Shown here: positions 25,899 through 54,755 of the stretch, one piece after another | Layout of the letters: each line of letters starts with the position of its first letter | How positions within the stretch are numbered: position 1 is the stretch's first letter | Assembly (NCBI GenBank): GCA_013285945.1 | Contig: JABDGP010000009.1 | Location: 1-62,268 of the forward strand | DNA: 62,268 nucleotides | Direction: 5' to 3' | Source of the DNA: Bacteroidota bacterium | Lineage (GTDB): Bacteria; Bacteroidota; Bacteroidia; Cytophagales; Cyclobacteriaceae | Notes under the pieces: generated by a model | What the model saw: only the letters and a program-made list of their open reading frames with translations | Database searches by the model: none | Told to the model about the DNA's origin: nothing | Translations under genes and position numbers: made by a program

Positions 25899-28469
25899 CT
25901 AAGCAGAATTTCGGGCAGCATTGATAATACCAAACATGCAGCGGATAACAAGCTTTCGATAAAGCTGTTCATATTCCTTATCTCCTTCTTTGGGCATGCG
26001 AAGGCTCATCAGTGCAAATTGCTGGATTGCAACCAAGGGCAAAACTATTTTTTCGCGAAGCGTTACAGAATCCCGAATCATCGGGTTGTTTTCCATCAGA
26101 TGATCAAATCCAGATATCTTTAACACCATTTCATTCGACAACTTAAATTCTTCGTGCATTTTCCGCCATATGTCGCCAAATTCAGGATCGCTGCCTAAAT
26201 AGGCCGTTGGCTGAAAGTAGGTCTTTGTCAGCGACATCATGCTGTTACCAAGTAGTGTGCGGAAAAACAAAGAGTTGGAGTAGAGCGTCTTCAGTTTTTC
26301 TAGGTGGCCTTCATCTATAAATTTTTTAAGAGAATATCCAACTCCATAAAAACCCGGGATATTTTGCTTCATCATTGCCCATGAGCCTACAAAAGGAATC
26401 GCCCGCAGGTCTTCAAATTTCAGACCATCTGCCGAGTTTCTTTTCACTGGCCTTGAACCGATATTGGCATCGCCAAAAAAGGAAAGTGGCGTAACTCGCT
26501 CGAGGTAGGGAACAAATTTAGCATCATGTTTTAAATCCAGATACTTCCGATATCCTTCATCGGCCAATTCGTCTAATAACTTTTTGTCTTCCTCGCTCAA
26601 TTGGTTTTTCTTTCTCTTCGAGACCGTGTTATCCAAACCGGAAGAAAGAAGTTGTTCAAGATTATATCTACATGAAGCAGGCTTTCCAAAATTAGAGCTT
26701 ATGGTTTGACCCTGAATAGTAATTTGTACTTCTTCGTGCTCAATGGTATCGCCAAGCGAAGAATAAAAATCATGTGTATTGCCACCTCCACGAGCAGGAG
26801 GCCCCCCCCTTCCATCGAAGAATATCGCTTTCAGATGATGCTTGCGAGAAACAGTTGTAAGAGTTTCCTTGGCCCGAAATATGGACCAGTTAGCACGTAA
26901 ATAACCTCCGTCTTTAGTTCCATCCGAAAATCCAAGCATTATCGTTTGCCGATTGGCTCGTTTGTGAAGATGACTTCTGTAAGCTGGTATTGAATACAAC
27001 TCTTCCATAATGCCTGGCGCGTGGGCGAGATCATCAATAGTTTCGAACAACGGTACAACATCGATTTCGAGGCCGTTTGCTTTTCCAATCAGAAGCCGGG
27101 CCAAAGCAAAAATCTCGATAATATGCAGCGCGCTCTGACAGTTACTGATGATATAGCGATGACAACCAAGAGCACCATTTTCCTGCTGAATTGTCTCGAT
27201 TGCTTCTATACTTTGAATGGTTTCGTTTACAAGTGTATCGTCAAACTGGTGAGCTGATAGGTCGACCTTAAGGTTTAGTAAATAATCTATTTTATCCTTT
27301 ACAGAAAGTGCCTCAAATTCTTTTGAGTGTATAGAAAGCTTCTGTTTGGAAAGTGTTTCCAAAATCGAACTCCAAACAGCATCATGTTTACGGCTGTCTT
27401 GCCTTATATCTAGACTGGCAAAATGAAATCCGAATAATTTCACCTTCAGAATAAAGGAGTCGAGTAACTCCAGAAACAGGCCGTTGTGTTTATCCACCAA
27501 ATTGGTTCGCACTTCATTCAGCTCTAGCAAAAGCTCGTTCGGATTGGAATAGCTGTTTTCTTTTGCAGAGACCAGACTGAATATCTTCTGCTCAATATTT
27601 GCAATGAGTTTGAAAACGCCGTGAAATGTAAGTCTGCGCCTTAATAAACGGATATCTTTATAATAGCATTTCAGAATTGTGCTCTTCAGTCTCGCTGCTA
27701 CCTTCAGTGTGATATCGCTGGTAACAAAAGGGTTCCCGTCGCGGTCGCCTCCCGGCCAGAAGCCCACGACAATAAGTCGGTTATTTTTCCATTCATGTAA
27801 ATTCATCTGAAGCCCTTCGGCCATCGACTGAATAATATCTGATGCTGCGGAATAAAAGACGTTTTCCAAAAACCAGCACAGGCTTATCGCTTCCTCATAA
27901 GGCGACGGCTTGGTTTCATTGATAAAAGCTGTTTTACCCAACTGCCGCAATAACAAATTGATTTGCCGTAAATCATTCTCACGGATCGACTTCTCGAGAT
28001 CTGTCAATATCCCAAGTACATATCCAGGATAAAACTGAGTAGGGTGAGCAGTTAAAACCACTCTAAGACTGAATTCTTCTAGTCGTTTTTTAAGTTCTTC
28101 GGTCCTGTTTTCAAATTTTGAACGAAAAAGCAATGCAGAAGCAGTGCCGCTTCCATTCAGGTCATTAATCTGCTCGAAAGCGGCATCTTCAACTGAGTCG
28201 AACAGAGCCACTTGTCGTTCCACATATTGAATGAAGTTGAAAAGCATATCAAACTGTTCCTTGCGATTGATATGAGGTGCAAAATCATTAAAAAAATTGG
28301 CTATTATTTCTTTCGGAGATGTGCCCTGAACAAAATTCGTTTCGCACTCCTGCTGTAATAAAGGCAAAAGTGTTCCGGTACGCGATATGTTTTGAAATGG
28401 CAGGTTTAAAAATAAACTGTTATAGATGTGAAACCGGGAGCCTATTATTTCTTCGTACTTTAAATGCAT
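25899..28469 (-). CDS. ppc: Phosphoenolpyruvate carboxylase
   Basis: The protein has 856 residues, within the bacterial range. The catalytic His motif is VLTAHPTQ, the PEP/bicarbonate region is VGFWPGGDRDGNPFVT, and the glycine-rich catalytic loop is FDGRGGPPARGGG. The C-terminal SWAMMKQNIPGFYGVG and the end NAARNSA match the allosteric C-terminus of PEPC. The PPARGGG variant of the loop is the form I know from Bacteroidota. It makes oxaloacetate from PEP and bicarbonate for anaplerosis. It is transcribed away from the DUF4136 gene at 28564. Confidence 0.95.
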   Translation of the reverse strand: MHLKYEEIIGSRFHIYNSLFLNLPFQNISRTGTLLPLLQQECETNFVQGTSPKEIIANFFNDFAPHINRKEQFDMLFNFIQYVERQVALFDSVEDAAFEQINDLNGSGTASALLFRSKFENRTEELKKRLEEFSLRVVLTAHPTQFYPGYVLGILTDLEKSIRENDLRQINLLLRQLGKTAFINETKPSPYEEAISLCWFLENVFYSAASDIIQSMAEGLQMNLHEWKNNRLIVVGFWPGGDRDGNPFVTSDITLKVAARLKSTILKCYYKDIRLLRRRLTFHGVFKLIANIEQKIFSLVSAKENSYSNPNELLLELNEVRTNLVDKHNGLFLELLDSFILKVKLFGFHFASLDIRQDSRKHDAVWSSILETLSKQKLSIHSKEFEALSVKDKIDYLLNLKVDLSAHQFDDTLVNETIQSIEAIETIQQENGALGCHRYIISNCQSALHIIEIFALARLLIGKANGLEIDVVPLFETIDDLAHAPGIMEELYSIPAYRSHLHKRANRQTIMLGFSDGTKDGGYLRANWSIFRAKETLTTVSRKHHLKAIFFDGRGGPPARGGGNTHDFYSSLGDTIEHEEVQITIQGQTISSNFGKPASCRYNLEQLLSSGLDNTVSKRKKNQLSEEDKKLLDELADEGYRKYLDLKHDAKFVPYLERVTPLSFFGDANIGSRPVKRNSADGLKFEDLRAIPFVGSWAMMKQNIPGFYGVGYSLKKFIDEGHLEKLKTLYSNSLFFRTLLGNSMMSLTKTYFQPTAYLGSDPEFGDIWRKMHEEFKLSNEMVLKISGFDHLMENNPMIRDSVTLREKIVLPLVAIQQFALMSLRMPKEGDKEYEQLYRKLVIRCMFGIINAARNSA

Positions 28470-40624: not shown

Positions 40625-41455
40625 TTGAAGGCGGCGTTCAGTAAAAGAAGTCTCGTAATCGTGTTTGCCGTTGTGTATGCACTGACACTGGTGTGGCTGT
40701 CATCCGTGTGGTACCAGGGATATATTGGCTTTCATTTCTTCAATGACCTGTTTGAATGGGAGTATTTGGATAAGCTCGGACATTTCTTTGCTTCGTTTCA
40801 TCTTGGTCTTTTCTTTTATAAAGTTTTGGGTAATTCCGAGAATCTGAACTCTTCGTTGCAAAAAAAATGGATCTGCTTTTCAGGGTTTATCCTGCTTCTT
40901 CCAATTGAAATTCTCGACGGCTTCTCATTAAACTACGGGGCATCACCTGCTGACTTATTGGCCAATGGATTGGGAAGCGTTTTTTGCTACCTGCATGTCT
41001 CCTTCAAGCTTATCTCAAATACACTCCCCAAATTTTCATTCCACACTACCGCATTTAGTATCATTCGGCCTGATCTCCTAGGTTCGTCTGTTTTTCAGCA
41101 AACCTTAAAAGATTATAATGGTCAGACATACTGGCTTTCAGTGGATCCCAATAAAATTTTGAATACTAAAATCCTACCAAGTTGGCTTCTGCTTTCAATC
41201 GGTTATGGAGCGGAGGGGTTGCTTGGCGGGCATGATAACGAGTGGCAAGCCAAGGATGGCAACGTGATTGATTACTCGAATGTGACCCGAACCAAAAGAG
41301 TCTTTATTTCTGTTGACATTAATGCTGATTACTTCCGCAGTAAAAACAAATGGTTCAATTATTTATTCGCGCCTTTCGTATTGATCAAGTTTCCGGCACC
41401 CGCCATTGAAATCAATTTTGAACGAGGTATTATCCTCCATCCAATTTATTTCTGA
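40625..41455 (+). CDS. DUF2279-family (YfiM-like) membrane-associated protein
   Basis: The protein has 276 residues from a TTG start; no ATG or GTG lies in frame before the first helix. A signal or membrane helix spans about residues 8-30, then DKLGHFFASFHLGLFFYKVL and DGFSLNYGASPADLLANGLGSVFCY, the DUF2279/VanZ-like blocks with conserved His, Ser and Asp in the membrane. The C-terminal half is a polar periplasmic domain. The last 10 bp overlap the end of the converging DedA gene. The function is unknown. Confidence 0.75.
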   Translation: MKAAFSKRSLVIVFAVVYALTLVWLSSVWYQGYIGFHFFNDLFEWEYLDKLGHFFASFHLGLFFYKVLGNSENLNSSLQKKWICFSGFILLLPIEILDGFSLNYGASPADLLANGLGSVFCYLHVSFKLISNTLPKFSFHTTAFSIIRPDLLGSSVFQQTLKDYNGQTYWLSVDPNKILNTKILPSWLLLSIGYGAEGLLGGHDNEWQAKDGNVIDYSNVTRTKRVFISVDINADYFRSKNKWFNYLFAPFVLIKFPAPAIEINFERGIILHPIYF

Positions 41456-42024
41456 GCAGCTTCTTCAGAGTTAACTTTCCTGGTGGTTATTCTATTAATT
41501 GTAAAGCCCAGCGTCAAACCTACGAGTGCAAAGCCAATCATTATAAAAATAAAATTCTCTTCAAATGATTTGGTCTGCAGGTTCAGCAACCGCCCTGTCC
41601 AGTAACCGGCGGTGCTCACCGTAGTCGCCCAGATCAAACCCGTAACTGTGCTATAAAAAAGATAGCTAATCGGCCGCAGTCCGCTCATGCCAATTACCAG
41701 AGGTATGATAATGCGGAAGCCATAAAGGAACCGGTAGCTAAAAAGAATCTGGAGTTTGTGATGATGAAAGAAGTCGGTGACCGGCTTAAACTTCGCTTGC
41801 AATTTTGGGCGCTTCGCAATGAAGACTTTCCCGTTCAGTCGGCCGATTAGAAAGTAAATCCAATCACTGATGAAAGAACCTGAAAACGCAGCCAGCACAG
41901 TCCAAGGGAATGCAAATAAGCCCTTATAAATCAATGAAGAAGCTGTAAGGATCGCTGTTTCACCCTCAAAAAAAGTACCTACCATCAGGGCTAAATACCC
42001 GAACTCATTAATAAATTTCTCCAT
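41446..42024 (-). CDS. DedA-family (SNARE-associated) membrane protein
   Basis: The protein has 192 residues with 4-5 hydrophobic segments. The family motifs FEGETAILTASSL, SGSFISDWIYFLIGRLNGK and FLYGFRIIIPLVIGMSG (the conserved Arg/Gly motif) are present. DedA proteins are involved in lipid carrier recycling (undecaprenyl-phosphate flipping) and membrane homeostasis. It is the last of four genes in the kds-like operon, 8 nt after the HAD gene. This ties it to surface polysaccharide or lipopolysaccharide synthesis. Confidence 0.88.
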   Translation of the reverse strand: MEKFINEFGYLALMVGTFFEGETAILTASSLIYKGLFAFPWTVLAAFSGSFISDWIYFLIGRLNGKVFIAKRPKLQAKFKPVTDFFHHHKLQILFSYRFLYGFRIIIPLVIGMSGLRPISYLFYSTVTGLIWATTVSTAGYWTGRLLNLQTKSFEENFIFIMIGFALVGLTLGFTINRITTRKVNSEEAAQK

Positions 42025-42032
42025 GATTTAAT

Positions 42033-42734
42033 TCAATTCCCCGATGCTTCCGTCACTTTTCCGTCTTTGTTGAGATATGATATGGTGTTCACCATTTTTC
42101 GCTCATTCAAATAGCGTTGATAGGCTTCATCGAAGTGACTTCGCTTGCGGACAGCTTCATCATATTCCTCGAGAGTGCCCAGCAACAATTCGCACACTTC
42201 ACGCACAGCATGAGCATCCGATGCAGTTATGTAATCGGCTAATTCATTCTTAATAGAATAGTTCTGAAACAAAGGAGAGGCCTGATGTTTCACTAAAAAC
42301 CGAAGGCCGCACTTTTCGGCAACACTCAGATCAAGCACATCGTCATAGACAAACGCAACTTCATGAGGCTGCAGGCTATTCTTCTTTAAAAAATGCTCAA
42401 ACGCAACCAATTTGTTAATGGACTTAAAATATACGGCATGAAAATGTTCGCGCTGAGCTAAATGTAAGGCTGCGGGGTTTTCCTCTCCGGTGATGACGAC
42501 CACGGAGGGCAGCGATCCGTGTTTCAGCCAATGACCAAACCGAAGCATGTTAGTACCCATAGAATCCACTTCACTGAAAGGGCTTCCACCTGCCGCGGTT
42601 TTCACGCCATCGTTGAAGACACCGTCCCAATCAAAGATGTAGGCTTTGATTTTAGAAAGCTTATCCTTGAATTCAGCAAAAGGGCGGCAAAATGTGCCGC
42701 CCAGTTCTGTAAATATTATTTCGGTATTATCCAT
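42033..42734 (-). CDS. KdsC-like HAD phosphatase
   Basis: The protein has 233 residues, about 50 longer than KdsC. Catalytic motif I is FDWDGVFNDG (Asp35, Asp37), motif II ITGEEN (Thr82), motif III Lys108 (SINKLVAFEHFL) and motif IV VYDDVLD (Asp131, Asp132). The alignment by eye with KDO-8-phosphate phosphatase is good through HAVREVCELLL. In KdsC motif IV reads IGDDLID; here Tyr130 replaces the Gly. There is an N-terminal extension of about 27 residues and a C-terminal tail of about 50. Its place after kdsA-like and transaldolase-CBS genes supports a 3-deoxy-ulosonate phosphate as substrate. Confidence 0.8.
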   Translation of the reverse strand: MDNTEIIFTELGGTFCRPFAEFKDKLSKIKAYIFDWDGVFNDGVKTAAGGSPFSEVDSMGTNMLRFGHWLKHGSLPSVVVITGEENPAALHLAQREHFHAVYFKSINKLVAFEHFLKKNSLQPHEVAFVYDDVLDLSVAEKCGLRFLVKHQASPLFQNYSIKNELADYITASDAHAVREVCELLLGTLEEYDEAVRKRSHFDEAYQRYLNERKMVNTISYLNKDGKVTEASGN

Positions 42735-42755
42735 TGCTACTTAGCCTATTGAAGG

Positions 42756-43769
42756 CTAGTCTACTTCCATATCCTGAATATCAAGCATGCCTGAAGGCTT
42801 GCCATTTTCAGTTACGAGGATGGTATCTACTTTAGATTTCTTAAAAATCTCAGACGCTTCATACAGCATTGCATTGGCATCAACTGAAACGGGAGGATTG
42901 TATTTAAAGTCTCCCATTTTTTGCGTCAACACATTCCTTCCGTCTTGTTGTATTTTTCTACGGAGTTCTCCGTCGGTGAATACACCCAGAGCACTACCAT
43001 CACCTTTTGTTACGGTTACCGCGCCAAATCCAAATTCAGTCATTTTTACAATGGCATCGGTAAGTGTAGCGTCAAAAGAAACAACCGGATTCACTTTATT
43101 GATAGCATCTTTCACTTTCACGGTCATCAGGCGGGTATGCTCCACAAATTGTTGTGTACCTAAAGAAGTGAAATTATTTTCTGTCAACACTTTCATCAGT
43201 TTCCAAGGAACTGTAATAGTGTGAACGCCAATATTGAGTGCATTGCGAACATGTTCTACGGTGCGAACGGACGAGAACATCACTTTGGTATCGTATCCGT
43301 AATGATCCACGGCAAACACACATTGCTCAACCAGGTCAAGCGCATCATGACCTTGATCCTGCAAGCGGCCTACCAGCGGGCAAACGTACGATGCGCCTGC
43401 TTGCATAGCCATATATGCCTGCTGCAAAGTATAAATCAAATGAACATTTACAAGCAGCCCTTCCCTTCTCAAAAGATTACAAGCTTTCACACCTTCCAGA
43501 GAAACAGGAATCTTGAAAACGGTCTTCTTAGGGTCAAGGCCCAACGCCAACTGGCGCTTCGCCTCTTTCAAAACATCTTCCGCCTTATCGCCAAGCGCTT
43601 CAATCTGAAGCACCGGGACAATTTTAGAAAGCTTTACGATAAGTCCATCAACATCGGTAACCCCGCCACGGTGCATAAATGTAGGCGTCGTAGTAAGGCC
43701 GTTGAGGAAGCCCAGTTGAAATGCGTCTTCAATTTCTTTGAGATCTGCAGAGTCTAAGTACAATTCCAT
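42756..43769 (-). CDS. Transaldolase-like protein fused to a CBS-domain pair
   Basis: The protein has 337 residues. Residues 1-215 are a small transaldolase/fructose-6-phosphate-aldolase barrel: MELYLD with Asp6, LTTTPT, catalytic Schiff-base Lys86 in FKIPVS, LIYTLQQAYMAMQAGASYV, and a C-terminal helix. Residues 219-337 are two CBS domains, with SFDATLTDAIVKMTEFGFGAV, GVFTDGELRR, PPVSVDANAMLYEASEIF and DTILVTENGKPSGM. The barrel matches E. coli FSA position for position but has Thr28 where Asn28 is expected and Leu132 where Tyr131 stands. The CBS pair resembles the one after the SIS domain of KdsD. It lies 29 nt after kdsA and 21 nt before the kdsC-like gene, so it takes the usual place of KdsD. 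Confidence 0.85.
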   Translation of the reverse strand: MELYLDSADLKEIEDAFQLGFLNGLTTTPTFMHRGGVTDVDGLIVKLSKIVPVLQIEALGDKAEDVLKEAKRQLALGLDPKKTVFKIPVSLEGVKACNLLRREGLLVNVHLIYTLQQAYMAMQAGASYVCPLVGRLQDQGHDALDLVEQCVFAVDHYGYDTKVMFSSVRTVEHVRNALNIGVHTITVPWKLMKVLTENNFTSLGTQQFVEHTRLMTVKVKDAINKVNPVVSFDATLTDAIVKMTEFGFGAVTVTKGDGSALGVFTDGELRRKIQQDGRNVLTQKMGDFKYNPPVSVDANAMLYEASEIFKKSKVDTILVTENGKPSGMLDIQDMEVD

Positions 43770-43798
43770 AAAATGTATTTCGGGTTAAATAAAAAATT

Positions 43799-44650
43799 CT
43801 ATTTCAAAACTGGAGTTTGTTCGCGGTATTTCACTTCAATCTGGTGGAGTTCAATCAATGGCTTCAAAAATTCTTCGAGGTCATACACGCACAATTGACT
43901 CGCCGCATCGCAAAGTGCCTTTTCTGGCTCCGGATGTGTTTCAATGAAAACGCCATCAACTCCCGAAGCAACTCCGGCACGCGAAAGAACTGGCAAAAAT
44001 TCACGAGCACCGCCTTTAGCATCCGCACTTGGAATTCCGTATTTCCGGATTGCATGAGTAACATCAAAGACTACCGGGTAACCGATCTTGCCCATGTGGT
44101 AAAAGCTACGCGGGTCAACGATAAGGTCGTTATAGCCAAAAGTATAGCCGCGCTCAGTGAGGATAATCTGGTCATTGCCTGCCTCCACACACTTGGTTAC
44201 AGGATGTTTCATATTGTCGGGGGCAAGAAACTGGCCATGCTTGATATTAATCACTCGTCCGGTCTTGGCTGCGGCTACCATCAACGAAGTTTGCATGCAG
44301 AGATAAGCCGGAATTTGTAACACATCTACTACAGATCCGGCAGCAGCAGCCTGGTCCGGATAGTGAATGTCGGTGAGCAGCGGAAAACCGAATTGTTCCT
44401 TGATCTTGGCCAGCATCTTCACACCCTTGTCTAGGCCCGGGCCATTGTAATACTTGAGACTGCTACGGTTATCCTTCTGGAATGACGACTTATAGATGAT
44501 CTTGATCTTCATCCGTTCCGAAACTTCTTTCAGTTTTTCGGCTGTGTCCATCATGATCTTTTCTTCTTCGATCACACACGGGCCTGAGATGAGGAAAAGC
44601 TCATCGGCACCGCACTCAATATTGCCTACACGAACTATTTTCTTATTCAT
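43799..44650 (-). CDS. kdsA: KdsA-like 3-deoxy-ulosonate-phosphate synthase
   Basis: The protein has 283 residues and is the first gene of the operon. The fold signatures of KDO-8-phosphate synthase are present: ISGPCVIE, SSFQKDNRSS, LTDIH, QIPAYLCMQTSLM, IKHGQFLAP and TERGYTFGYNDL. Cys25 places it in the metal-dependent class. Three conserved positions differ from the usual pattern: KDNRSS for KANRSS, CMQTSL for CRQTDL (Met119, Ser122) and KHGQF for KKGQF (His138). The enzyme should condense PEP with an aldose phosphate, but the substitutions may indicate a substrate other than arabinose 5-phosphate. Confidence 0.85.
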   Translation of the reverse strand: MNKKIVRVGNIECGADELFLISGPCVIEEEKIMMDTAEKLKEVSERMKIKIIYKSSFQKDNRSSLKYYNGPGLDKGVKMLAKIKEQFGFPLLTDIHYPDQAAAAGSVVDVLQIPAYLCMQTSLMVAAAKTGRVINIKHGQFLAPDNMKHPVTKCVEAGNDQIILTERGYTFGYNDLIVDPRSFYHMGKIGYPVVFDVTHAIRKYGIPSADAKGGAREFLPVLSRAGVASGVDGVFIETHPEPEKALCDAASQLCVYDLEEFLKPLIELHQIEVKYREQTPVLK

Positions 44651-44767: not shown

Positions 44768-45049
44768 CTAATTTAACCGAATGCCTTTTATCTAACGTAA
44801 AAACAACTAACGCGAATTGGAAAAAGAATTCAAATATCCCACGACCGGCCATTTCACCGCAGGTCTAAGCTTCAGCCACCAGGCGCTGAATAAATCCCAC
44901 CTTTCTGTTGTCAACACAGGCAGGCGTCCGCATTGGCGGATTAGAATCTGATACTACCTCCCTCTCAATGAGATAGCAGCGCAATACCAAGGGTATTTCG
45001 CCATTTGTGCTTTAAGGTATTTTACTCATCTATTAATGTAAGAACTATC
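44768..45049 (+). ncRNA. Long structured leader of the arginine operon
   Basis: About 280 nt without a normal gene. Several hairpins are visible: 44843-44846 with 44862-44865, 44871-44876 with 44885-44890 (TTCAGC/GCTGAA) and 44927-44931 with 44936-44940. A dyad, TGTTGTCAACA, lies at 44906-44916. A 44-codon frame (44817-44951, TTG start) crosses the same region and ends after RRPHWRIRI. A regulatory RNA or attenuator is possible; no known riboswitch class was recognised. Confidence 0.4.
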
Positions 45050-45784
45050 GTGGACAACAATATTATCGTGCGTGAGGCTACAGTTGCTGATGTACATTAT
45101 GCCGAAACCATCACCAACGAAATGGCAGAATCGGCCAAGGCCAGAGGTACAGGCATTGCAAAGCGTTCGCCCGAATACGTAAAAATGAAAATGGAAGAAG
45201 GCAAAGCTGTGATTGCCGTAACCCCAGTCGGGGAATGGGTCGGGTTTTGCTACATCGAGTCATGGGAACATGAAAAGTTTGTGGCCAACAGCGGGCTGAT
45301 TGTCTCGCCTGCTTTCCGCAAAAGCGGTGTGGCTACCCTTATCAAGCAGAAAGTATTCGCTCTCTCCCGAAAGAAATATCCCGACGCAAAGATATTCGGG
45401 CTCACTACCGGTCTAGCCGTAATGAAGATCAATTCGGACTTAGGCTACGAACCCGTAACTTATTCAGAATTAACTACCGATGAAGAATTTTGGAAAGGCT
45501 GCCAAAGCTGTGTTAACTATGAAATACTAAAAAGCAAGGAGCGCAAAAACTGCATGTGCACGGCCATGCTGTACGATCCGGTAGAAAAAGCCAAGGAGGC
45601 TGAACAAAAAAAACTACATCAAGTGGGGCCGGGCAATTTTTGGGGGCGAGACATGCGAAGCGACAACCGGCTGTTTGACCGCTGGGTTAAGTTTAAACAG
45701 TTCGTATTACTGAAAGGCTGGCGAAAGAAAGAAGATGAAGGCAGTCCGAGGAAACCTTCGCTGATGAGTTTGTTCTTCTGGTAA
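45050..45784 (+). CDS. GNAT acyltransferase heading the arginine operon, with a Cys4 motif
   Basis: The protein has 244 residues from GTG at 45050 (MDNNIIVREATVADV). An in-frame TTG at 45005 would add 15 unlikely residues. The GNAT domain covers about residues 5-140, with the acetyl-CoA loop VSPAFRKSGVATLIKQK and the motif B region IFGLTTGLAVMKINSDLGYEP. A Cys pattern C151-x2-C154-x13-C168-x-C170 follows and suggests a bound metal ion. Its place at the head of the operon argues for the N-acylglutamate synthase step, since the operon has no argA or argJ. Whether acetyl-CoA or succinyl-CoA is the donor is not shown. Confidence 0.8.
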   Translation: MDNNIIVREATVADVHYAETITNEMAESAKARGTGIAKRSPEYVKMKMEEGKAVIAVTPVGEWVGFCYIESWEHEKFVANSGLIVSPAFRKSGVATLIKQKVFALSRKKYPDAKIFGLTTGLAVMKINSDLGYEPVTYSELTTDEEFWKGCQSCVNYEILKSKERKNCMCTAMLYDPVEKAKEAEQKKLHQVGPGNFWGRDMRSDNRLFDRWVKFKQFVLLKGWRKKEDEGSPRKPSLMSLFFW

Positions 45785-45812
45785 TAGTCTAAAATATTTA
45801 TTCATACTTGAA

Positions 45813-47011
45813 ATGAAAAAAATTGTATTGGCTTCAGTGGCGGATTGGATACTTCGTATTGTGCTATCTACTTGTCGAAAGAGTTGGGCTATGAAGTCCA
45901 CACGATTACTGTGAACACCGGAGGCTTCAACGAAAGTGAAGTAAAGGAAATTGAAAAACGGGCGTTAAGCCTTGGTGTCAAATCACATACTACCGTAGAC
46001 GAAACAAAAAACTATTACGATAAGGTAATTCGATTTTTGGTGTTTGGTAATGTTCTTAAAAACGGAACGTATCCGTTAAGTGTGAGTGCCGAACGGATGT
46101 CGCAAGCGCTGGCTACCGCGAAGTATGCACAGCAAATCAATGCTCAGGCTGTGGCACATGGCAGTACCGGTGCTGGCAACGATCAGGTGCGATTCGATAT
46201 GGTCTTTCAAATTCTGGCACCGGGCTTAGAGATCATCACTCCTATCCGGGATAAAAAACTTAGCCGCGAAGAAGAAGTCGAATATTTAAAATCGAATGGA
46301 GTGGCCTTCAGTTCAGAAAAAGCTAAATACTCTATTAATAAAGGAATCTGGGGAACTTCGGTGGGCGGCAAGGAAACCTTAAACTCCCTCGGCATGTTGC
46401 CCGAGGAAGCTTGGCCGACACAAGTGACAAAAGGCGGAAGTGAAGAGATTAAGTTGGGCTTTGAAAAAGGTGAGTTGATTTCGGTAAATGGAAAAGGATT
46501 TTCGCACCCTACCGAGGCCATTCAGTTTCTGCAGTCCATCGCCGGGCATTATGGCATTGGCCGAGATATACATGTGGGTGATACTATTATTGGAATAAAA
46601 GGTAGGGTTGGATTTGAGGCGGCAGCCCCGGTGTTAATCATCAAGTCTCACCATGCACTTGAAAAACACGTGCTCACCAAATGGCAGCTCAGCTGGAAAG
46701 ACCAACTCGCTCAGTTCTATGGCAACTGGCTGCATGAGGGTCAATATCTTGATCCGGTGATGCGCAACATTGAAGCTTACCTGTCCGACTCCCAGCAAAA
46801 TGTAACGGGCGAAGTTTCCGTTACTCTATATCCGTATCGCTTTCAAATTAATGGAATTACATCTCCTTATGATTTGATGTCTGCAAAGTTTGGAAAGTAC
46901 GGAGAGATGAACCTGGGCTGGACAGGTGACGATGTAAAAGGGTTCACAAAAATTTTCGGCAATCAGGTGGCCATATATCATCAAGTGAAAGTTGAAGCGG
47001 AAAAAGGTTAG
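45813..47011 (+). pseudogene. argG: Argininosuccinate synthase, apparent 1-nt frameshift
   Basis: The natural ATG at 45813 opens MKKIVLA, then the frame breaks: the bases at 45831-45840 read GCT TCA GTG, whereas the other frame gives FSGGLDTSYCA, the ATP-pyrophosphatase P-loop that should follow. One T is missing in GCTTCAG relative to GCTTTCAG. The downstream frame then runs intact to 47011 with HGSTGAGNDQVRFD and all later argininosuccinate-synthase blocks; total length would be about 399 residues. The break is therefore either an assembly error or a real loss of function, since a start at TTG 45845 would lack the P-loop. The position after the GNAT gene and before argC is normal. Confidence 0.9.
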
Positions 47012-47035
47012 TCGTTATTAGTTAATCGTAAAACA

Positions 47036-48010
47036 ATGAGCAAAATAAAAGCAGGCATTATCGGAGCAGCTGGATATACTGGCGGAGAAACTATCCGCCT
47101 GTTGCTCAATCACCCGTCTGCTGAATTGATTTTTGCTCAAAGTCGAAGTCAGGCGGGCAAGCATGTGTCCGAGACGCATACAGATCTGGTTGGTGAAACT
47201 GATTTAAGATTCTCCGACTCTTTCGATAGGTCGGTTGATGTTCTTTTCCTTTGTCTTAGCCATGGCGAAAGTAAAAAGTGGCTGACGGACAATACCATTC
47301 CAACTCATACAAAAATCATAGATCTTGGAAATGATTTCAGATTAGGTGACAAGGTCGGTAGTCGGGAGTTTGTCTATGGTCTGCCTGAATTTCAAAAAGA
47401 AAAAATAAAAAGCGCCGGCAACGTTGCCAATCCAGGTTGCTTCGCTACAGCGATTCAGCTTGGGCTACTTCCATTAGCTGAAACTGGGGTTCTCAGTGAA
47501 GTTTACACAACCGGCATCACGGGATCTACCGGAGCGGGGCAAAAACTTCAGGAGACGACTCACTTCACGTGGCGCACAAACAATATCTCCGCATATAAAA
47601 CATTAACACATCAACACCTTGGCGAAATCAAGAGGACGTTGGCTTCGTTGCAGGCAGGTTTTAATGACTTCATAAATTTTATACCCTGGCGTGGCGATTT
47701 TACAAGAGGGATTTACGTGTCGTCAGTTGTGAAATGCAAGTTGAGTCTTGAAGAATTAAAAAATCTATATGGCAAGTTCTACTCGCAACATCCATTCACG
47801 CACACTTCAGCAACAATGATTGATCTGAAGCAAGTTGTGAATACCAACAAATGTTTACTTCATGTCGAAAAGATTGAAGATAAACTCGTCATTCATTCCG
47901 CGATGGATAATTTATTAAAAGGTGCTAGCGGTCAGGCGATTCAAAACATGAATTTAATGTTCGGTCTTGATGAAAGCGAAGGCCTGCGACTGAAAGCTAA
48001 TAGTTATTAA
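47036..48010 (+). CDS. argC: N-acyl-gamma-glutamyl-phosphate reductase
   Basis: The protein has 324 residues. The NAD(P)-binding start IKAGIIGAAGYTGGETIRLLLNHP and the catalytic Cys in ANPGCFATAIQLGLLPL, followed by ITGSTGAGQKLQETTHF and the HQHLGEIKR block, define ArgC. It reduces the acylglutamyl phosphate made by ArgB. The gene is 24 nt after argG and 9 nt before proC. Confidence 0.95.
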   Translation: MSKIKAGIIGAAGYTGGETIRLLLNHPSAELIFAQSRSQAGKHVSETHTDLVGETDLRFSDSFDRSVDVLFLCLSHGESKKWLTDNTIPTHTKIIDLGNDFRLGDKVGSREFVYGLPEFQKEKIKSAGNVANPGCFATAIQLGLLPLAETGVLSEVYTTGITGSTGAGQKLQETTHFTWRTNNISAYKTLTHQHLGEIKRTLASLQAGFNDFINFIPWRGDFTRGIYVSSVVKCKLSLEELKNLYGKFYSQHPFTHTSATMIDLKQVVNTNKCLLHVEKIEDKLVIHSAMDNLLKGASGQAIQNMNLMFGLDESEGLRLKANSY

Positions 48011-48019
48011 TTAAACAAA

Positions 48020-48826
48020 ATGGCAGAAACTAAAATAGCTATACTTGGCGGAGGTAATCTCGGCGTGGCCATTGCGCTGGGCGCGGCAAAAGGAAATGTT
48101 TCGAGTCCGAAAAACATTTCTATTACAAGAAGACATCTTTCCAAGATAGAACACCTCAAAAAAAATGGTTTTAAAGTTACTACCGAGAATATTGAAGCAG
48201 TCACGTCATCACGAATCATCATTTTGTGCGTTCAGCCCAAACAACTTCAGGGACTATTGCAAGAAATTGCTCCATCACTAAAAAAAGGCAAACATATTTT
48301 AGTCTCCACAATTACCGGAATTAGTACAGAGGAAATTTCTTCGCACATAAACAAAGAGATTCCGATAGTCAGAGCTATGCCAAATACCGCTATTGCAATC
48401 GGCTCATCGATGACTTGTATTTGCTCCAAAAACGCGAACGAAAAACAATTGAAAGAAATTCAAACTTTGTTTAACGCATTGGGCACCACTCTTGTCATTG
48501 AAGAGAGACTGATGAAAGCGGCCACCGTATTAGCGGCTAGTGGCATTGCTTTTTTTATGCGCTATATCAGAGCCGCAACTCAAGGCGGAATTCAGTTGGG
48601 CTTCGATTCTGAAGAGTCGCAACTTATTGCAGTTGAGACAGCTAAGGGAGCTGCCTCGCTCCTGTTGGGCAATCATTCACATCCCGAAATTGAAATCGAC
48701 AAAGTCACAACACCCGAAGGTTGCACCATTGCTGGATTAAACGAAATGGAGCATCAGGGATTAAGCTCAGCACTCATAAAAGGTATTATTACATCTTTCG
48801 AAAAAATCAATTCTATCAAAAAATGA
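48020..48826 (+). CDS. proC: Pyrroline-5-carboxylate reductase
   Basis: The protein has 268 residues. The Rossmann start IAILGGGNLGVAIALG, CVQPKQLQGLLQEI, RAMPNTAIAIGSSMT and TTPEGCTIAGLNEME are ProC motifs in order. It reduces pyrroline-5-carboxylate to proline. Its presence in the arginine operon couples proline and ornithine supply. The stop overlaps the argD start (ATGA). Confidence 0.93.
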   Translation: MAETKIAILGGGNLGVAIALGAAKGNVSSPKNISITRRHLSKIEHLKKNGFKVTTENIEAVTSSRIIILCVQPKQLQGLLQEIAPSLKKGKHILVSTITGISTEEISSHINKEIPIVRAMPNTAIAIGSSMTCICSKNANEKQLKEIQTLFNALGTTLVIEERLMKAATVLAASGIAFFMRYIRAATQGGIQLGFDSEESQLIAVETAKGAASLLLGNHSHPEIEIDKVTTPEGCTIAGLNEMEHQGLSSALIKGIITSFEKINSIKK

Positions 48827-49953
48827 AGCTCTTCGATGTCTACCCACTTTTTCCTATTGAACCAATAAAAGCTCAGGGCTCTTGGCTCTGGGACAAGCAG
48901 GGGAATAACTATCTTGATTTATATGGTGGTCACGCAGTGATCTCAATTGGCCATAACCATCCTCATTATGTCAGTGCAATAAAAAATCAATTGGATAAAA
49001 TCAGTTTCTACTCCAACAGTGTTCAAAATTCTTTGCAAGAAAGGTTAAGTGAAAAGCTAGGGCAGGTTTCTGGTTATCCTGATTATCAGTTATTCCTTTG
49101 CAACTCGGGAGCAGAGGCAAACGAGAATGCACTCAAGCTTGCCTCGTTTGTCAACGGAAGAAAAAAAGTAATCGCATTCAAAAAGTCATTTCATGGAAGA
49201 ACCTCCGGGGCTGTGGCTGCTACCGACAATCCAAAAATTGTAGCGCCATTTAATTCCGGACATGAAATCCAATTTCTTCCGCTAAATGATGAACAAGCAT
49301 TTAATCAATCTATAAACAATTCCGTTGCTGCAGTTATTATCGAAGGTATTCAGGGCGTGGGCGGCATTCAACTTCCAAGTGAATCATTTTTACAGTTGCT
49401 CTCTAAAAAATGTAAGGAAGTCGGTGCCTTGCTGATACTTGATGAAGTGCAATCGGGTTATGGACGAACGGGAAAATTTTTTGCGCATCAATTTGCAAGC
49501 ATCAAACCAGATTTGATTACCATCGCTAAAGGTATGGGCAATGGCTTTCCGGTAGGAGGAGTTTTAATTGAGCCATCGATAAAGCCATGGAGTGGAATGC
49601 TTGGGACCACGTTTGGCGGAAACTATCTTGCATGTGCTGCCTCACTGGCTGTGCTTGAGGTCATCGAAAAAGAAAATCTGATGGAGAATGCCGAGAAAAT
49701 CGGAAATTACCTGATGTCTCAAATCCAATCCGTTCCATCGGTTTTACAAGTGCGCGGACGTGGCTTAATGATTGGCTTCGATTTACCGGAAAGCCTGTCA
49801 GGTTTACGCCAAGAGCTTTTGTTCAAGCATCATATCTTCACCGGCGAAGCAAAACCAAATACTATTCGCTTACTGCCTTCGCTGGCGTTGAAAATTGAAG
49901 AAGCCGATTTATTGATGGAAGCATTGGCGTTCGAACTAAAAGCATTTGCCTGA
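48823..49953 (+). CDS. argD: N-acylornithine aminotransferase
   Basis: The protein has 376 residues from the ATG overlapping the proC stop. The frame is open further upstream, but that part is antisense-like and inside proC. The class III aminotransferase signs are NSGAEANENALKLA, the PLP-stacking region FHGRTSGA, LILDEVQSGYGRTGK and the Schiff-base Lys in TIAKGMGNGFPVGG. It transfers an amino group from glutamate to acylglutamate semialdehyde. Its stop overlaps the carbamoyltransferase start by one base (TGATG). Confidence 0.93.
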   Translation: MKLFDVYPLFPIEPIKAQGSWLWDKQGNNYLDLYGGHAVISIGHNHPHYVSAIKNQLDKISFYSNSVQNSLQERLSEKLGQVSGYPDYQLFLCNSGAEANENALKLASFVNGRKKVIAFKKSFHGRTSGAVAATDNPKIVAPFNSGHEIQFLPLNDEQAFNQSINNSVAAVIIEGIQGVGGIQLPSESFLQLLSKKCKEVGALLILDEVQSGYGRTGKFFAHQFASIKPDLITIAKGMGNGFPVGGVLIEPSIKPWSGMLGTTFGGNYLACAASLAVLEVIEKENLMENAEKIGNYLMSQIQSVPSVLQVRGRGLMIGFDLPESLSGLRQELLFKHHIFTGEAKPNTIRLLPSLALKIEEADLLMEALAFELKAFA

Positions 49954-50912
49954 TGAAGCAATTCCTATCCGTCAATGATGTGCCCAATATCAATGCGCTA
50001 GTTGACAAAGCGCTTGCCTATAAGATAAATCCATTGGCAGATCAGCATCTCGGGCAAAAGAAAAGAATGGGACTGCTGTTCTTAAATCCGAGTATGCGCA
50101 CACGTTTGAGCACACAAATTGCAGCACAAAATCTGGGCATGGAAGCTATTGTATTTAATGTTGGCCAGGATGGTTGGGCCCTGGAGTTTGAAGACGAAGC
50201 CATCATGAGTGGCAACACCGTGGAACACGTAAAAGATGCCGCCCCGATTTTAGGAAAATATTTTGATGTGCTGGGCGTTCGCACCTTTCCTACGTTACAA
50301 AATAAAGAAGAAGACTACAGTGAATTGTACGTCAACCAGTTTATAAAATATTCAGGCATTCCTGTTATAAGTCTGGAGAGCGCAACACTGCACCCGCTGC
50401 AAAGTCTTACCGATCTGATTACAATCACAGAAACATTTAAAGAAAAAAGAAAGCCAAGGATAGTGCTCACGTGGGCACCGCATGTAAAGGCCCTTCCGCA
50501 ATGCGTGGCCAATAGTTTTTCACAATGGGTGAATGCCTGGGGAAAAGCGGATTTTGTAATTACACATCCTGAAGATTATGAGCTTGACCCGAAGTTCACA
50601 AAAGGAGCATCGATTACTCATCATCAGGACGAGGCGCTTGAAAATGCAGACTTTGTTTATGTAAAAAACTGGAGCACGTACAATGATTATGGTAGAATTT
50701 ATTGCAACGACCCTCAGTGGATGCTCACCAACAAAAAATTGAAACCTACTAATAATGCTAAAATAATGCATTGCCTGCCTGTAAGAAGAAATGTGGAGCT
50801 AAGCGATGAAGTGCTTGACAACGCCCATAGTATAGTGACACAACAAGCAGCAAACCGGGTATGGGCTGCACAAGGAGTATTGAGCGAAGTATTAAATGGA
50901 TTGGGTAAATAA
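49953..50912 (+). CDS. argF': N-acylornithine carbamoyltransferase, predicted N-succinylornithine type
   Basis: The protein has 319 residues. The carbamoyl-phosphate loop is the altered SMRTRLS rather than STRTR, and MHCLPVRRNVELSDEV is at the C-terminus, both as in N-acetylornithine and N-succinylornithine transcarbamylases. The residue aligned with Glu92 of the Xanthomonas acetyl enzyme and Pro90 of the Bacteroides fragilis succinyl enzyme is Val90 here (SGNTVEHVKD). From what I recall of the published mutants, non-Glu residues at this position favour the succinylated substrate. The other arg genes around it support the acylated pathway. Confidence 0.9.
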   Translation: MKQFLSVNDVPNINALVDKALAYKINPLADQHLGQKKRMGLLFLNPSMRTRLSTQIAAQNLGMEAIVFNVGQDGWALEFEDEAIMSGNTVEHVKDAAPILGKYFDVLGVRTFPTLQNKEEDYSELYVNQFIKYSGIPVISLESATLHPLQSLTDLITITETFKEKRKPRIVLTWAPHVKALPQCVANSFSQWVNAWGKADFVITHPEDYELDPKFTKGASITHHQDEALENADFVYVKNWSTYNDYGRIYCNDPQWMLTNKKLKPTNNAKIMHCLPVRRNVELSDEVLDNAHSIVTQQAANRVWAAQGVLSEVLNGLGK

Positions 50913-50964
50913 AATGAGTATCAATTCTATTTAGACTTAGCCCATTGAATATCGATTGACAACT

Positions 50965-51756
50965 ATGAACAAACTATATATCATTAAAATAGGCGGCAAC
51001 GTACTCGATAATGAAAAAGCGTTAGCCGAGTTCCTCAAAAATTTTGCTTCTATACAAGCACCAAAAATCTTAGTTCACGGAGGCGGAAAAATTGCCACAG
51101 ATATCGGAAACCAATTGGGCATCGAGTCAAATTACATTGATGGAAGAAGGATCACGGACTCTCCGACCCGTGATTTGGTAACCATGGTTTACGGTGGCCT
51201 TCTGAATAAACAAATTACAGCTCAGCTTCAGTCTTTGCATTGCAACGCTATGGGCGTAACCGGCGCAGATGGAAATTTACTACGCGCCACCAAACGTCCC
51301 GTTACAAAAATTGATTACGGTTATGTGGGTGATATCACTCCCGAGAGTGTTAACTCTACTTTTCTTTATTTTCTATTAAAACAAAACATCACTCCAGTAT
51401 TCGCTTCACTCACACACGCCAACGGCGAAATCCTGAATACCAATGCCGATACAATAGCTTCAGTGCTGGCAATCTCGCTGAGCAAACATTTTGATACGCG
51501 ATTGATATTTTGCTTTGAGAAGAACGGAGTTTTGAAAAATGTAAATGATGAAAACTCTGTGATCAGCAATCTTACTAAAGAACTTTATGATAAACTTTTG
51601 AAGGAAGGCTCCTTTCACGATGGTATTTTGCCAAAGCTTGAAAATGCTTTTGCTGCAATTCAATCGGGAGTGAAAGAAGTTTTGATTGGAGAACACTCTC
51701 ACCTATTAGCAAATACCGGTTATGACACTCGCGGAACTTTGATTACGCTACAATGA
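50965..51756 (+). CDS. argB: N-acylglutamate kinase
   Basis: The protein has 263 residues from the ATG at 50965; TTG at 50956 is an alternative. The amino-acid kinase motifs are IIKIGGNVLDNEKA, LVHGGGKIATDIG, VTGADGNLL, TNADTIASVLA and FCFEKNGVLKN. It phosphorylates acylglutamate. The stop overlaps the argE start (ATGA). Confidence 0.92.
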   Translation: MNKLYIIKIGGNVLDNEKALAEFLKNFASIQAPKILVHGGGKIATDIGNQLGIESNYIDGRRITDSPTRDLVTMVYGGLLNKQITAQLQSLHCNAMGVTGADGNLLRATKRPVTKIDYGYVGDITPESVNSTFLYFLLKQNITPVFASLTHANGEILNTNADTIASVLAISLSKHFDTRLIFCFEKNGVLKNVNDENSVISNLTKELYDKLLKEGSFHDGILPKLENAFAAIQSGVKEVLIGEHSHLLANTGYDTRGTLITLQ

Positions 51757-52814
51757 AAGAGCACTTGCCCGGCATTGCGATTGATCTACTGCAGCAATTA
51801 ATTTCCATTCCGTCTTTTAGTAAGGAGGAAACGAAAACGGCATCATTGATTGAAGACTTTTTAGCTTACCACAATATTATAACGGTTCGTAAGGGCAACA
51901 ACGTCTGGTCGAAGAATCGGTTTTATGATCCTACAAAGCCGACAATACTTCTTAATTCACATCACGATACCGTAAAACCAAATCCTGCCTATACCCGAAA
52001 TCCATTTTCGGCAAATATTGAAGGCGGAAAACTATTTGGCCTGGGAAGCAACGATGCCGGCGGCGCATTAGTATCACTTCTTGTTACCTACTTCTATTTT
52101 TACGGAGAAAAGAATTTAAAGCATAATTTAATACTCTTGGCTTCGGCCGAAGAAGAAATATCGGGTACAGGTGGAGTTGAATTGGTTTGGAATGATTTAC
52201 CAAAGATTGATTGTGCCATTGTTGGCGAGCCGACATTGATGGAAATGGCAATCGCTGAAAAAGGTTTGTTGGTTTTGGATTGTATTGCTAAAGGAAAAGC
52301 TGGCCACGCTGCTCGCGAAGAAGGCGTGAATGCAATTTATGAAGCGTTGGATGACATTACATGGTTTGAAAGTTTTCAATTTCCAAGGATTTCCAAAACC
52401 CTCGGCAAAGTAAAAATGACCGTTACCATGATCAATGCAGGTCAGGCTCACAACCAAGTTCCACCGGAGTGTAAATTTACTGTTGATTGCCGGGTGACGG
52501 ATGCATATTCATTTGAGGAAATTCTCGAAGAAGTAAAAAGGAATGTGAAATGTGAAATCGTACCACGATCACTGCGTTTGCGTCCTTCAAGTATCGAAGA
52601 GACACATCCATTGGCGCTTGCCGGGAAAAAGCTTGGCTTGAATTTTTATGGTTCACCTACCACCTCAGATCAGGCATTGATTCCCGTTCCTTCAGTGAAA
52701 ATTGGACCTGGGGATTCAGCTCGCTCTCACAGTGCCGATGAATTTATTTATACATCTGAAATAGAAAAGGGAATAGATACCTATATTGATCTTCTGGAGG
52801 GAGTAATAAAATGA
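51753..52814 (+). CDS. argE: N-acylornithine deacylase, M20 peptidase family
   Basis: The protein has 353 residues. The M20 metal and catalytic motifs are [51 protein letters not shown] and [12 protein letters not shown] dimerisation domain lies in the middle. It would release ornithine or arginine precursor from the acylated intermediate. It is overlapped by nudK at its end. Confidence 0.92.
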
Positions 52815-53386
52815 ACGAAGGCGTTAAGGTTTTAAAAACAGAAATACTTTCCAACAATTGGTATGTACTAAAGAAAGTTACTTTCAACTTTCTTACCCGA
52901 AAAGGAAACTGGATTGAACAAAGTAGAGAAGCGTACGATCGCGGTAATGGTGCGACTATTCTATTATACAATAAAGAGACTGCCAATGTGATTTTAACTC
53001 GTCAATTCAGAATGCCCACGTTCATCAACGACAATCCCACCGGAATGCTAATAGAGGCTTGCGCCGGTTTGCTCGATCTTGATAACCCAGAAGATTGCAT
53101 CCGTCGCGAAACCGAAGAAGAAACTGGTTTTAAAATCAAAGAAGTAAAAAAGATATTCGAAGCTTACATGTCTCCTGGTTCTGTCACGGAGGTGTTGTAT
53201 TTTTTTATTGCTGAATACTCAAGGGATATGCAAATATCGGAAGGTGGAGGTGTGGATGACGATGAGAACATTGAAGTGTTGGAAGTACCTTTTTCGAATG
53301 CACTGAAGATGATTGAGACAGGCGAGATACGTGATGGCAAAACAATTATGCTGCTTCAGTATCTACAAATTCACAATATACTTTGA
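52811..53386 (+). CDS. nudK: NudK-type Nudix hydrolase (GDP-mannose pyrophosphatase-like)
   Basis: The protein has 191 residues and overlaps argE by 4 bp. The Nudix box ends [12 protein letters not shown]. The rest agrees closely with what I remember of E. coli Nud[56 protein letters not shown] and [17 protein letters not shown]. NudK cleaves GDP-mannose and related sugar nucleotides. Its presence in an arginine operon is odd; it may be a passenger or have a link I cannot see. Confidence 0.88.
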
Positions 53387-53423
53387 TGGCCACACAAATC
53401 TCACGCTTTGAATTAGAATCGAT

Positions 53424-54755
53424 ATGAAACTTTGGCAAAAAGAAAAAGATTCAGACAGCGCGGTAAACAAGTTCACCGTTGGCAACGACCGCAAAACAGA
53501 TCTCTATCTTGCTTCTGTTGATATACTTGGCTCGTTAGCTCATATCCATATGCTGGAGTCGGTGGGGTTGCTGGCAAAAGATGAGCTGAGTATCTTATCA
53601 CAAGAGCTTAAGTTGATCTATAGCGAAGTTGAAAAAGGCAATTTCATTATTGAAGATGGAGTGGAAGATATTCATTCGCAGATTGAAATTCTATTAACCA
53701 AAAAACTGGGTGACGTAGGAAAAAAAATTCACAGTGGCCGCAGTAGAAACGATCAGGTATTAGTTGACATCAAACTTTTTCTTCGAAATGAAATACAAAA
53801 CCTTACTGGCGAGGTAAAGTCTTTGTTTGATTTGCTTCAGTCAAAGAGTGAAGAACATAAGGAGAAACTTCTTCCTGGCTACACGCATCTGCAGCTTGCA
53901 ATGCCTTCGTCTTTCGGGCTTTGGTTTGGAGCCTATGCTGAAAGTTTGTCAGACGATCTGATTACACTTCAGGGTGCTTATCAAATTGTAAATAAAAACC
54001 CGTTAGGCTCCGCGGCAGGTTATGGCTCTTCCTTTCCGTTGAATAGAAAGATGACGACCGACTTACTTGGGTTTGATGATTTGAATTATAATGTGGTGTA
54101 TGCTCAAATGGGGCGTGGCAAAACCGAACGGATTGTTGTACAAGCCATCGGCAACCTGGGCGCGACGCTTTCTAAGCTGGCAATGGATGCGTGTCTATTT
54201 TTAAATCAAAACTTTGCATTCATTTCTTTTCCTGACGAGCTCACAACAGGTAGCAGCATAATGCCGCACAAAAAAAACCCCGATGTATTTGAGTTGATTC
54301 GTGCAAAATGTAATTCCCTTCAATCATTACCCAATGAAATCATCTTGCTGACCAACAATTTGCCATCAGGTTATCATCGCGATTTTCAGCTGCTTAAAGA
54401 AAAAGTGTTCCCTGCTTTCGAAACTTTAACCGATTGCCTGCAAATGGCTACGTTGATGTTGTCAAATATCAAAATAAAGGACCGCATTCTCGAAGACGAA
54501 AAATACAAGTACTTATTCAGTGTAGAGGAAGTTAATAAGCTTGTGCTGTCGGGAGTACCATTTCGCGATGCTTACAAGAAAATAGCGAACGACATTGAAA
54601 CGGGGAAGTTTACGTACTCACCTAAAGTCAACCACACCCACGAAGGAAGCATTGGCAACTTATGTAACGACAAAATCAGGGAGAGCTTTGATCAAATCCT
54701 TCACACATTCAATTTCGAAAGATCGAATAGTGCCGTTAAGAAATTACTCGATTAG
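53424..54755 (+). CDS. argH: Argininosuccinate lyase
   Basis: The protein has 443 residues. The fumarase/aspartase-superfamily signatures are EDIHSQIE, IHSGRSRNDQVLVDIKLFLR, YTHLQLAMPSSFGLW and the Ser-loop TTGSSIMPHKKNPDVFELIRAK. It is the last step to arginine and the last gene of the operon, 37 nt after nudK. Its stop directly abuts the end of the converging DUF2721 gene. Confidence 0.95.
   Translation: MKLWQKEKDSDSAVNKFTVGNDRKTDLYLASVDILGSLAHIHMLESVGLLAKDELSILSQELKLIYSEVEKGNFIIEDGVEDIHSQIEILLTKKLGDVGKKIHSGRSRNDQVLVDIKLFLRNEIQNLTGEVKSLFDLLQSKSEEHKEKLLPGYTHLQLAMPSSFGLWFGAYAESLSDDLITLQGAYQIVNKNPLGSAAGYGSSFPLNRKMTTDLLGFDDLNYNVVYAQMGRGKTERIVVQAIGNLGATLSKLAMDACLFLNQNFAFISFPDELTTGSSIMPHKKNPDVFELIRAKCNSLQSLPNEIILLTNNLPSGYHRDFQLLKEKVFPAFETLTDCLQMATLMLSNIKIKDRILEDEKYKYLFSVEEVNKLVLSGVPFRDAYKKIANDIETGKFTYSPKVNHTHEGSIGNLCNDKIRESFDQILHTFNFERSNSAVKKLLD

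Follow-up and report, generated by a model that had tools for sequence, protein, structure and literature searches.

How is arabinose 5-phosphate (A5P) supplied in bacteria that carry kdsA without KdsD? KdsD is regarded as the entry enzyme of the pathway to 3-deoxy-manno-octulosonate (Kdo), a pathway on which the outer membrane of most Gram-negative bacteria depends. The question is raised by a locus of a Bacteroidota bacterium of the family Cyclobacteriaceae. The window, i.e. the whole stretch of 62,268 nucleotides (nt) analysed here, is contig C9 (JABDGP010000009.1) of a 2.93-Mb genome assembled in 130 contigs and 77.7% complete (GCA_013285945.1). On its minus strand, kdsA (3-deoxy-8-phosphooctulonate synthase, 43799..44650, 283 amino acids (aa)) is followed by a gene for a fusion of a small transaldolase barrel with a pair of CBS domains (42756..43769, 337 aa), a gene for a KdsC-like HAD protein and a gene for a DedA-type membrane protein, with gaps of 29, 21 and 8 nt. 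A first-pass annotation had described this order and these gaps correctly, and had proposed that the fusion takes over from KdsD and might form A5P by aldol addition. We find that the fusion behaves as a KdsD replacement, which is strongly supported by genomics; its product is very probably A5P, as judged from its alternation with KdsD and from its gene company.

Pfam places a TAL_FSA barrel and, C-terminal to it, a CBS pair within the single open frame of the fusion, so that this part of the first-pass annotation was correct. The barrel (residues 1-212, 43134..43769, minus strand) reaches the superfamily profile score of PF00923 over residues 3-204 (117.1 bits, cut-off 27), and the predicted structure of the fusion (mean pLDDT 86.9, pTM 0.68) has transaldolases of Thermotoga, Thermoplasma, Thermus and Bacillus as fold matches. 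The CBS pair (residues 214-334, 42768..43130, minus strand) is covered by two stretches of PF00571 (49.4 bits, cut-off 24). Pfam gives only these two families for the fusion, and the SIS domain of KdsD/KpsF/GutQ is missing. The likeness to KdsD/KpsF/GutQ lies in the C-terminal CBS pair and in gene place, and the catalytic barrel is unrelated; the KdsD model TIGR00393 matches the CBS part only (fusion residues 214-327, model positions 152-265), with about 54 bits (54.2-54.5) against a cut-off of 203.7. With the fructose-6-phosphate aldolase (FSA)/small transaldolase group (PF00923, TIGR00875; FsaA; PDB 3r8r, 1vpx, 4xz9), the fusion shares the fold, the catalytic lysine, an aspartate and the phosphate-binding residues, but it differs by a score below the TIGR00875 equivalog cut-off (153.8 versus 245.95), by an altered donor pocket and by the attached CBS pair. 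A chance reading frame was rejected, because the fusion recurs at full length in the nearest relatives of our sample, with 87, 80, 73 and 70% identity.

The distribution of the fusion was followed in three draws of genomes: 148 from the same order as the window (first draw), 392 from the phylum, and 113 from a second order (that of genome G500). The fusion was present in 55 of the 148 genomes, 49 of them at least 90% complete; in two of these 55 (G051, G082) the gene runs off the end of its contig, in another (G136) it is split over two contigs, and one fusion genome of the second order (G565) is likewise cut. Other full-length copies in the first draw were 57-87% identical to the window protein, and the remaining listed matches were plain transaldolases of 30-38% identity. 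In a species-level genome collection, at least 549 relatives of the fusion were found. The best 80 of them bore titles of Bacteroidota or its subgroups (Cytophagales, Flammeovirgaceae, Chitinophagaceae and Flavipsychrobacter among others) with two exceptions, a Saccharibacteria assembly and an Azovibrio metagenome-assembled genome, which we take for binning or naming errors. The same 80 include the isolate Chryseolinea serpens DSM 24574 (80% identity, L070); together with the many other genomes, this led us to reject an assembly or binning artefact. Spread by plasmids was also rejected, as none of 72,556 plasmid records had one place covering 80% of the fusion. Among the seven matches at E ≤ 1e-75 in the phylum draw, all were full length and none was a free-standing barrel of the fusion type. 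The fusion represents a protein family that is conserved and widely distributed in the Bacteroidota.

Fusion and KdsD alternate in genomes that have KdsA. In the first draw, KdsD (TIGR00393, E ≤ 1e-30) was found in 71 genomes, in all of them over the cut-off, KdsA (E ≤ 1e-40) in 121 and KdsB (E ≤ 1e-20) in 132. Among the 121 genomes with KdsA, 51 had the fusion only, 67 KdsD only, two both and one neither (Fisher 1.6e-30, without correction for kinship). KdsB accompanied the fusion and KdsA in 50 of 53 genomes. Counted by genera, 31 had the fusion without KdsD (30 with the fusion alone, and g67, in which one further genome had neither), 37 had KdsD without the fusion, and one (g53) had both. 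Both states occurred within seven families; the alternation is therefore not a single split inherited by all. The other draws, with the KdsD limit set at E ≤ 1e-40, agreed: KdsD was absent from all seven fusion genomes of the phylum draw (three of them shared with the first draw) and from all five of the second order, although it matched in 275 of 392 (270 over cut-off) and 105 of 113 genomes (104 over cut-off), respectively. In all eight fusion genomes outside the first order, a KdsA over cut-off was encoded no more than about 0.6 kb away from the fusion. Three genomes of the second order had neither system (G212, G566, G591), and their matches to the KdsA model were weak (at most 138 bits versus 314), as 3-deoxy-arabino-heptulosonate 7-phosphate synthases would give. 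Altogether, KdsD was absent in 61 of 63 distinct fusion genomes (55 + 4 + 4 from the three draws), which strongly supports the earlier proposal that the fusion occupies the place of KdsD.

The 27 first-draw genomes without a KdsA match comprised two with the fusion (G082 and G110, 75% and 72% complete), two with KdsD (G011, G107), 13 with KdsB only and ten with none of the four. The 13 genomes with a KdsB match but without KdsA, KdsD or fusion at the limits used form an observation of their own: nine belong to family f8 and have genomes of 1.1-1.6 Mb (G007, G026, G042, G071, G084, G098, G112, G125, G137), and the others are G009, G013, G033 and G044.

A search for a SIS-CBS KdsD, suggested by the first-pass annotation, returned no protein of this type matching TIGR00393 in the 77.7% complete genome of the window, and none in the near-complete genomes G064 and G144 of the same genus. 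Owing to the incompleteness of the former, the test leans on these relatives. A KdsD hidden in the window's own genome was considered and rejected: its five SIS matches sit in other proteins, two of them in a single GlmS-like protein and one each in a MurQ-like, a GmhA-like and a PGI/PMI-like protein (all named by eye), and none is SIS-CBS.

The gene company of the fusion, which had also been proposed for inspection, points to the same pathway. It was surveyed in 80 named loci, i.e. the best 80 of at least 549 relatives, with up to 5 kb on each side; near relatives are thus over-represented in the counts. In 64 of the 80 loci, KdsA was encoded by one of the three genes upstream of the fusion on its own strand (by the adjacent gene in 43); a HAD gene was among the three genes downstream in 59 loci, and 55 loci had both. 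KdnA and KdnB relatives were both encoded on the strand of the fusion in 41 loci, KdsB was found in 20 and WaaA in 11. The cluster order in relatives is kdnA-kdnB-kdsA-fusion-HAD, in some cases with kdsB and waaA as well. In three fetched KdsD loci (L135-L137), the order kdsA-kdsD puts kdsD in the very spot of the fusion. Moreover, two genomes (G029 and G059, loci L151 and L152) have kdnA-kdnB-kdsA-HAD, with kdsB next to it or nearby, but no fusion, and their KdsD is encoded elsewhere; these clusters are natural controls.

Relatives of the 8-amino-Kdo genes kdnA and kdnB were common near the fusion (43 and 42 of the 80 loci, respectively; L055-L134), and the lipopolysaccharide of fusion-bearing Bacteroidota may commonly contain 8-amino-Kdo. 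In C. serpens, the best PDB match of KdnA was 5k8b (8-amino-3,8-dideoxy-manno-octulosonate transaminase, 461 bits) and that of KdnB was 5k8c (3-deoxy-manno-octulosonate 8-oxidase, 435 bits). NCBIfam gave neither protein a KdnA or KdnB name, the best matches being below cut-off; in the same cluster, KdsB was over cut-off and WaaA was the best match by name, under cut-off. Unlike the loci of many relatives, the window has no kdnA or kdnB adjoining the fusion, and of the Kdo/8-amino-Kdo cluster set it holds only kdsA and the HAD gene around the fusion.

Of these two neighbours in the window, KdsA passes two equivalog cut-offs (NF003543, 352.6 versus 242; TIGR01362, 334.5 versus 314) and stays under that of a third KdsA model (NF009109, 275.8 versus 457). 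The HAD protein (42033..42734, minus strand, 233 aa) has KdsC as its closest NCBIfam match, below the cut-offs (NF007019, 5e-17, 62.1 versus 208; TIGR01670, 52.5 versus 106.95), and no Pfam family at E ≤ 0.01. As the KdsC equivalog and subfamily scores were not reached, we name it KdsC-like only; it is probably the Kdo-8-phosphate phosphatase. The last gene of the run encodes a DedA/VTT-domain membrane protein (41446..42024, minus strand, 192 aa; PF09335, 51.7 bits). It lies outside the span 42033-44650 first assigned to all four genes, which covers the other three, and DedA was found beside the fusion in only six of the 80 named loci, all of near relatives.

KdsA itself bears on the product. 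We compared 13 type-1 KdsA proteins, three of 'type 2' from genomes with KdsD and 76 of type 2 (repeats included, one locus set hand-picked). KdsA of fusion loci, that of the window included, belongs to type 2, in which A47D, F103Y, R106M, K125H, Q188R, P190Y and S232C (Aquifex numbering) are fixed with respect to the 13 type-1 proteins; C11, N48, R49, D81, H83, Q99 and H185 are conserved across all three groups. The same type-2 changes occur in three genomes with KdsD (G029, G059 and G120). The occurrence of one KdsA type with either enzyme points to the same product, A5P, for fusion and KdsD. The subgroup with R106M, K125H and Q188R at positions constant in type 1 is worth enzymology of its own.

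The chemistry by which the barrel might form A5P was approached through an alignment of 112 fusions with 21 plain transaldolases (hand-picked, same order), E. coli TalB and FsaA. Repeats are included among the 112 (L012 is the fusion of the window, L023 and L038 recur as L139 and L141, and other duplicate organisms are possible). D6, E57, K86, N108, R135, S167 and R169 are conserved in all 112, the TalB equivalents being D17, E96, K132, N154, R181, S226 and R228; with H110, residues D6, E57, K86, R135 and R169 are those marked on the barrel of the window protein (within 43134..43769). The fusion thus has the Schiff-base lysine, the acid/base Asp/Glu and the phosphate-binding Arg/Ser of the PF00923 superfamily, the residue roles being taken in part from excerpts of PMC3962226. 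At the same time, T28, Q55, A58, H110, C130, L132, Q137 and S166 of the fusion replace Asn, Ser, Val, Thr, Ser, Phe, Asp and Ala, respectively, of all 21 plain transaldolases, and F165 replaces Ala (20) or Ser (one). According to the excerpts of PMC3962226, the site of FsaA A129 and TalB S176 (C130 in the fusion) governs the preference for dihydroxyacetone, TalB R181 binds the acceptor phosphate, and F178Y turns TalB from a transaldolase into an aldolase; an excerpt of PMC7767278 gives FsaA A129S an about 20-fold higher efficiency with fructose 6-phosphate. As for the FsaA route to A5P mentioned in the first-pass annotation, PMC9947464, citing earlier work, does state that E. coli FsaA joins glycolaldehyde with glyceraldehyde 3-phosphate to give A5P only.

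These data may be combined into the following model. KdsD would have been displaced by the non-orthologous fusion in the Kdo pathway, which in many relatives would lead onward to 8-amino-Kdo. Glycolaldehyde would be bound to Lys86 as an enamine, the phosphate of glyceraldehyde 3-phosphate would be held by Arg135, Ser167 and Arg169, and the barrel would most likely join the two into A5P. KdsA and the HAD phosphatase would then convert A5P via Kdo-8-phosphate into Kdo, to be activated by KdsB, and the CBS pair would probably regulate the barrel. By our own reasoning, the C1 aldehyde of A5P would take the position of C2 of fructose 6-phosphate, with the phosphate unmoved and no hydroxymethyl to bind; a pocket without the dihydroxyacetone groups that keeps the phosphate groups would fit such a product. 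Because the catalytic lysine, acid/base and phosphate residues are kept but the donor pocket is altered, aldol addition would be the favoured chemistry: if A5P is the product, it is rather probably formed in this way and not by isomerisation. To the whole reading, i.e. that the fusion supplies A5P in place of KdsD and its barrel would work by aldol addition, we give a probability of roughly 0.53.

Several observations weigh against this reading. As for the replacement, a normal kdsD with a second kds set, named by the first-pass annotation as evidence to the contrary, was confined to G069 and G096 (L138, L139, L140, L141). Each of these two genomes encodes fusion and KdsD alike and has two copies of kdsA, of which one adjoins the fusion and the other lies on the KdsD contig. 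A further kdsA genome, G133, has neither enzyme; its assembly comprises 550 contigs, and the other two genomes of its genus carry the fusion. No KdsB was found in the 77.7% complete genome of the window, both same-genus genomes having one. Neither KdsA nor HAD was near the fusion in 12 of the 80 named loci. Of 30 loci of the first draw (the best 30 of 55, with 1.5 kb or less on each side), 13 had KdsA among the three genes upstream, 15 had HAD downstream, ten had both and 12 had neither. The CBS pair was rightly called the same kind as that of KdsD, in that its best NCBIfam and PDB neighbours are of the KpsF/KdsD type (CBS pairs of A5P isomerases, PDB 4o9k, 3k2v, 3fna), but this resemblance is non-specific: a stand-alone CBS protein (142 aa) encoded in the same genome reaches 53.4 bits with TIGR00393, against 54.5 for the fusion. 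Descent of the pair from KdsD was also considered. In a tree of 20 fusion and 18 KdsD pairs (repeats included, a single distant outgroup row), the fusions form one clade (98/100) whose place relative to KdsD is not settled; with the score of the stand-alone protein, this leaves the view that the pair was taken from KdsD unsupported. The type-2 changes of KdsA leave room for a different substrate. As for the chemistry, the site of Tyr131, which confers aldolase activity in FSA, is Leu132 in all 112 fusions, and Lys86 and Glu57 have next to them the new, invariant His110, which an isomerase could use. Finally, glycolaldehyde is not an abundant metabolite, and no gene forming it was recognised among 19 neighbour proteins inspected, a search that was not exhaustive.

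The main rival keeps A5P as the product and makes the barrel an isomerase of ribulose 5-phosphate, as KdsD is, with proton transfer by Glu57 and His110 and with Lys86 serving as a positive charge. Triosephosphate isomerase, with its Lys-His-Glu set, is the model for this. Such an enzyme would need no new precursor, the enzyme being replaced is itself an isomerase, His110 stands where all 21 plain transaldolases have Thr, and here, too, a five-carbon sugar phosphate would have nothing to place in the lost C1-hydroxymethyl pocket. Nevertheless, the aldolase set D6, E57, K86 and N108 is retained complete, and chemical reasoning suggests that isomerisation through a Schiff base would place the lysine on the wrong carbon, so that another use would have to be found for the invariant K86; isomerase activity is not known in the transaldolase/FSA family. 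We regard the isomerase as rather unlikely. The residues speak most for aldol addition, and metabolic economy speaks most for isomerisation. The aldol chemistry first proposed fits the conserved residues and the activity of FsaA, with an isomerase on the same barrel remaining as its competitor.

Other explanations appear weaker. The barrel might remove a dihydroxyacetone unit from a transketolase-made octulose 8-phosphate and so release A5P, which would suit a transaldolase-family protein with its phosphate site kept; PMC5854111, on octulose, contains the terms A5P, transaldolase and Kdo. The sites of TalB N35 and S176 are, however, Thr and Cys in 112 of 112 fusions, as against Asn and Ser in 21 of 21 plain transaldolases, and the changed S176 site is the one tied to dihydroxyacetone preference in the excerpts of PMC3962226, which makes this route very improbable. 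It is also improbable, if slightly less so, that the fusion yields no A5P at all, either because type-2 KdsA takes another aldose phosphate made by the barrel or because the fusion merely regulates the cluster. Although substitutions fixed at type-1-constant positions of KdsA would be in line with another substrate, the occurrence of the same KdsA with KdsD and without fusion, the cluster relatives of KdnA and KdnB, named in PDB for acting on Kdo, and the frequent presence of KdsB all argue otherwise, and a purely regulatory role is at odds with a complete catalytic set. That the fusion is an ordinary transaldolase lying in the operon by chance is hardly credible: family membership would allow it, but the genome encodes a separate plain transaldolase (on contig C74, 219 aa), the donor pocket is unlike that of plain transaldolases, and the alternation with KdsD would be left without explanation.

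Elsewhere in the window, an arginine gene run adjoins the locus on the plus strand (45005-54755), with an open reading frame for a 259-aa GNAT-like protein (no NCBIfam match at 1e-15), argG, argC, proC, argD, a carbamoyltransferase gene, argB, a gene for an ArgE/DapE deacylase and argH. In NCBIfam, proC, argB and argH were over cut-off, argG and ArgE/DapE under it, and the rest were named by eye. On the minus strand are a phosphoenolpyruvate carboxylase gene (25902-28469; PF00311, 488 bits) and a gene for a large protein (15286-17322) in which a CHU_C type IX secretion signal accompanies laminin-G-like, PKD and Ig-like domains.

Our search of open-licence papers brought up no earlier description of a transaldolase-CBS fusion replacing KdsD. 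As many Bacteroidota apparently use an unrelated enzyme at this step, models based on gene content would misjudge an intact Kdo pathway as broken. If the barrel is an isomerase, it would be a new isomerase on the transaldolase fold. If it works by aldol addition, it would represent a natural step of two-carbon assimilation; an A5P aldolase with extremely high affinity for glycolaldehyde is named as a target to identify or construct in PMC9947464. In that case, glycolaldehyde or an equivalent source of the two-carbon enamine must be steadily supplied in these cells by a route that has so far gone unrecognised. The chances are about even that part of the Bacteroidota makes its Kdo and 8-amino-Kdo via a dedicated A5P aldolase, which would join glycolaldehyde with glyceraldehyde 3-phosphate in place of the isomerisation of ribulose 5-phosphate.

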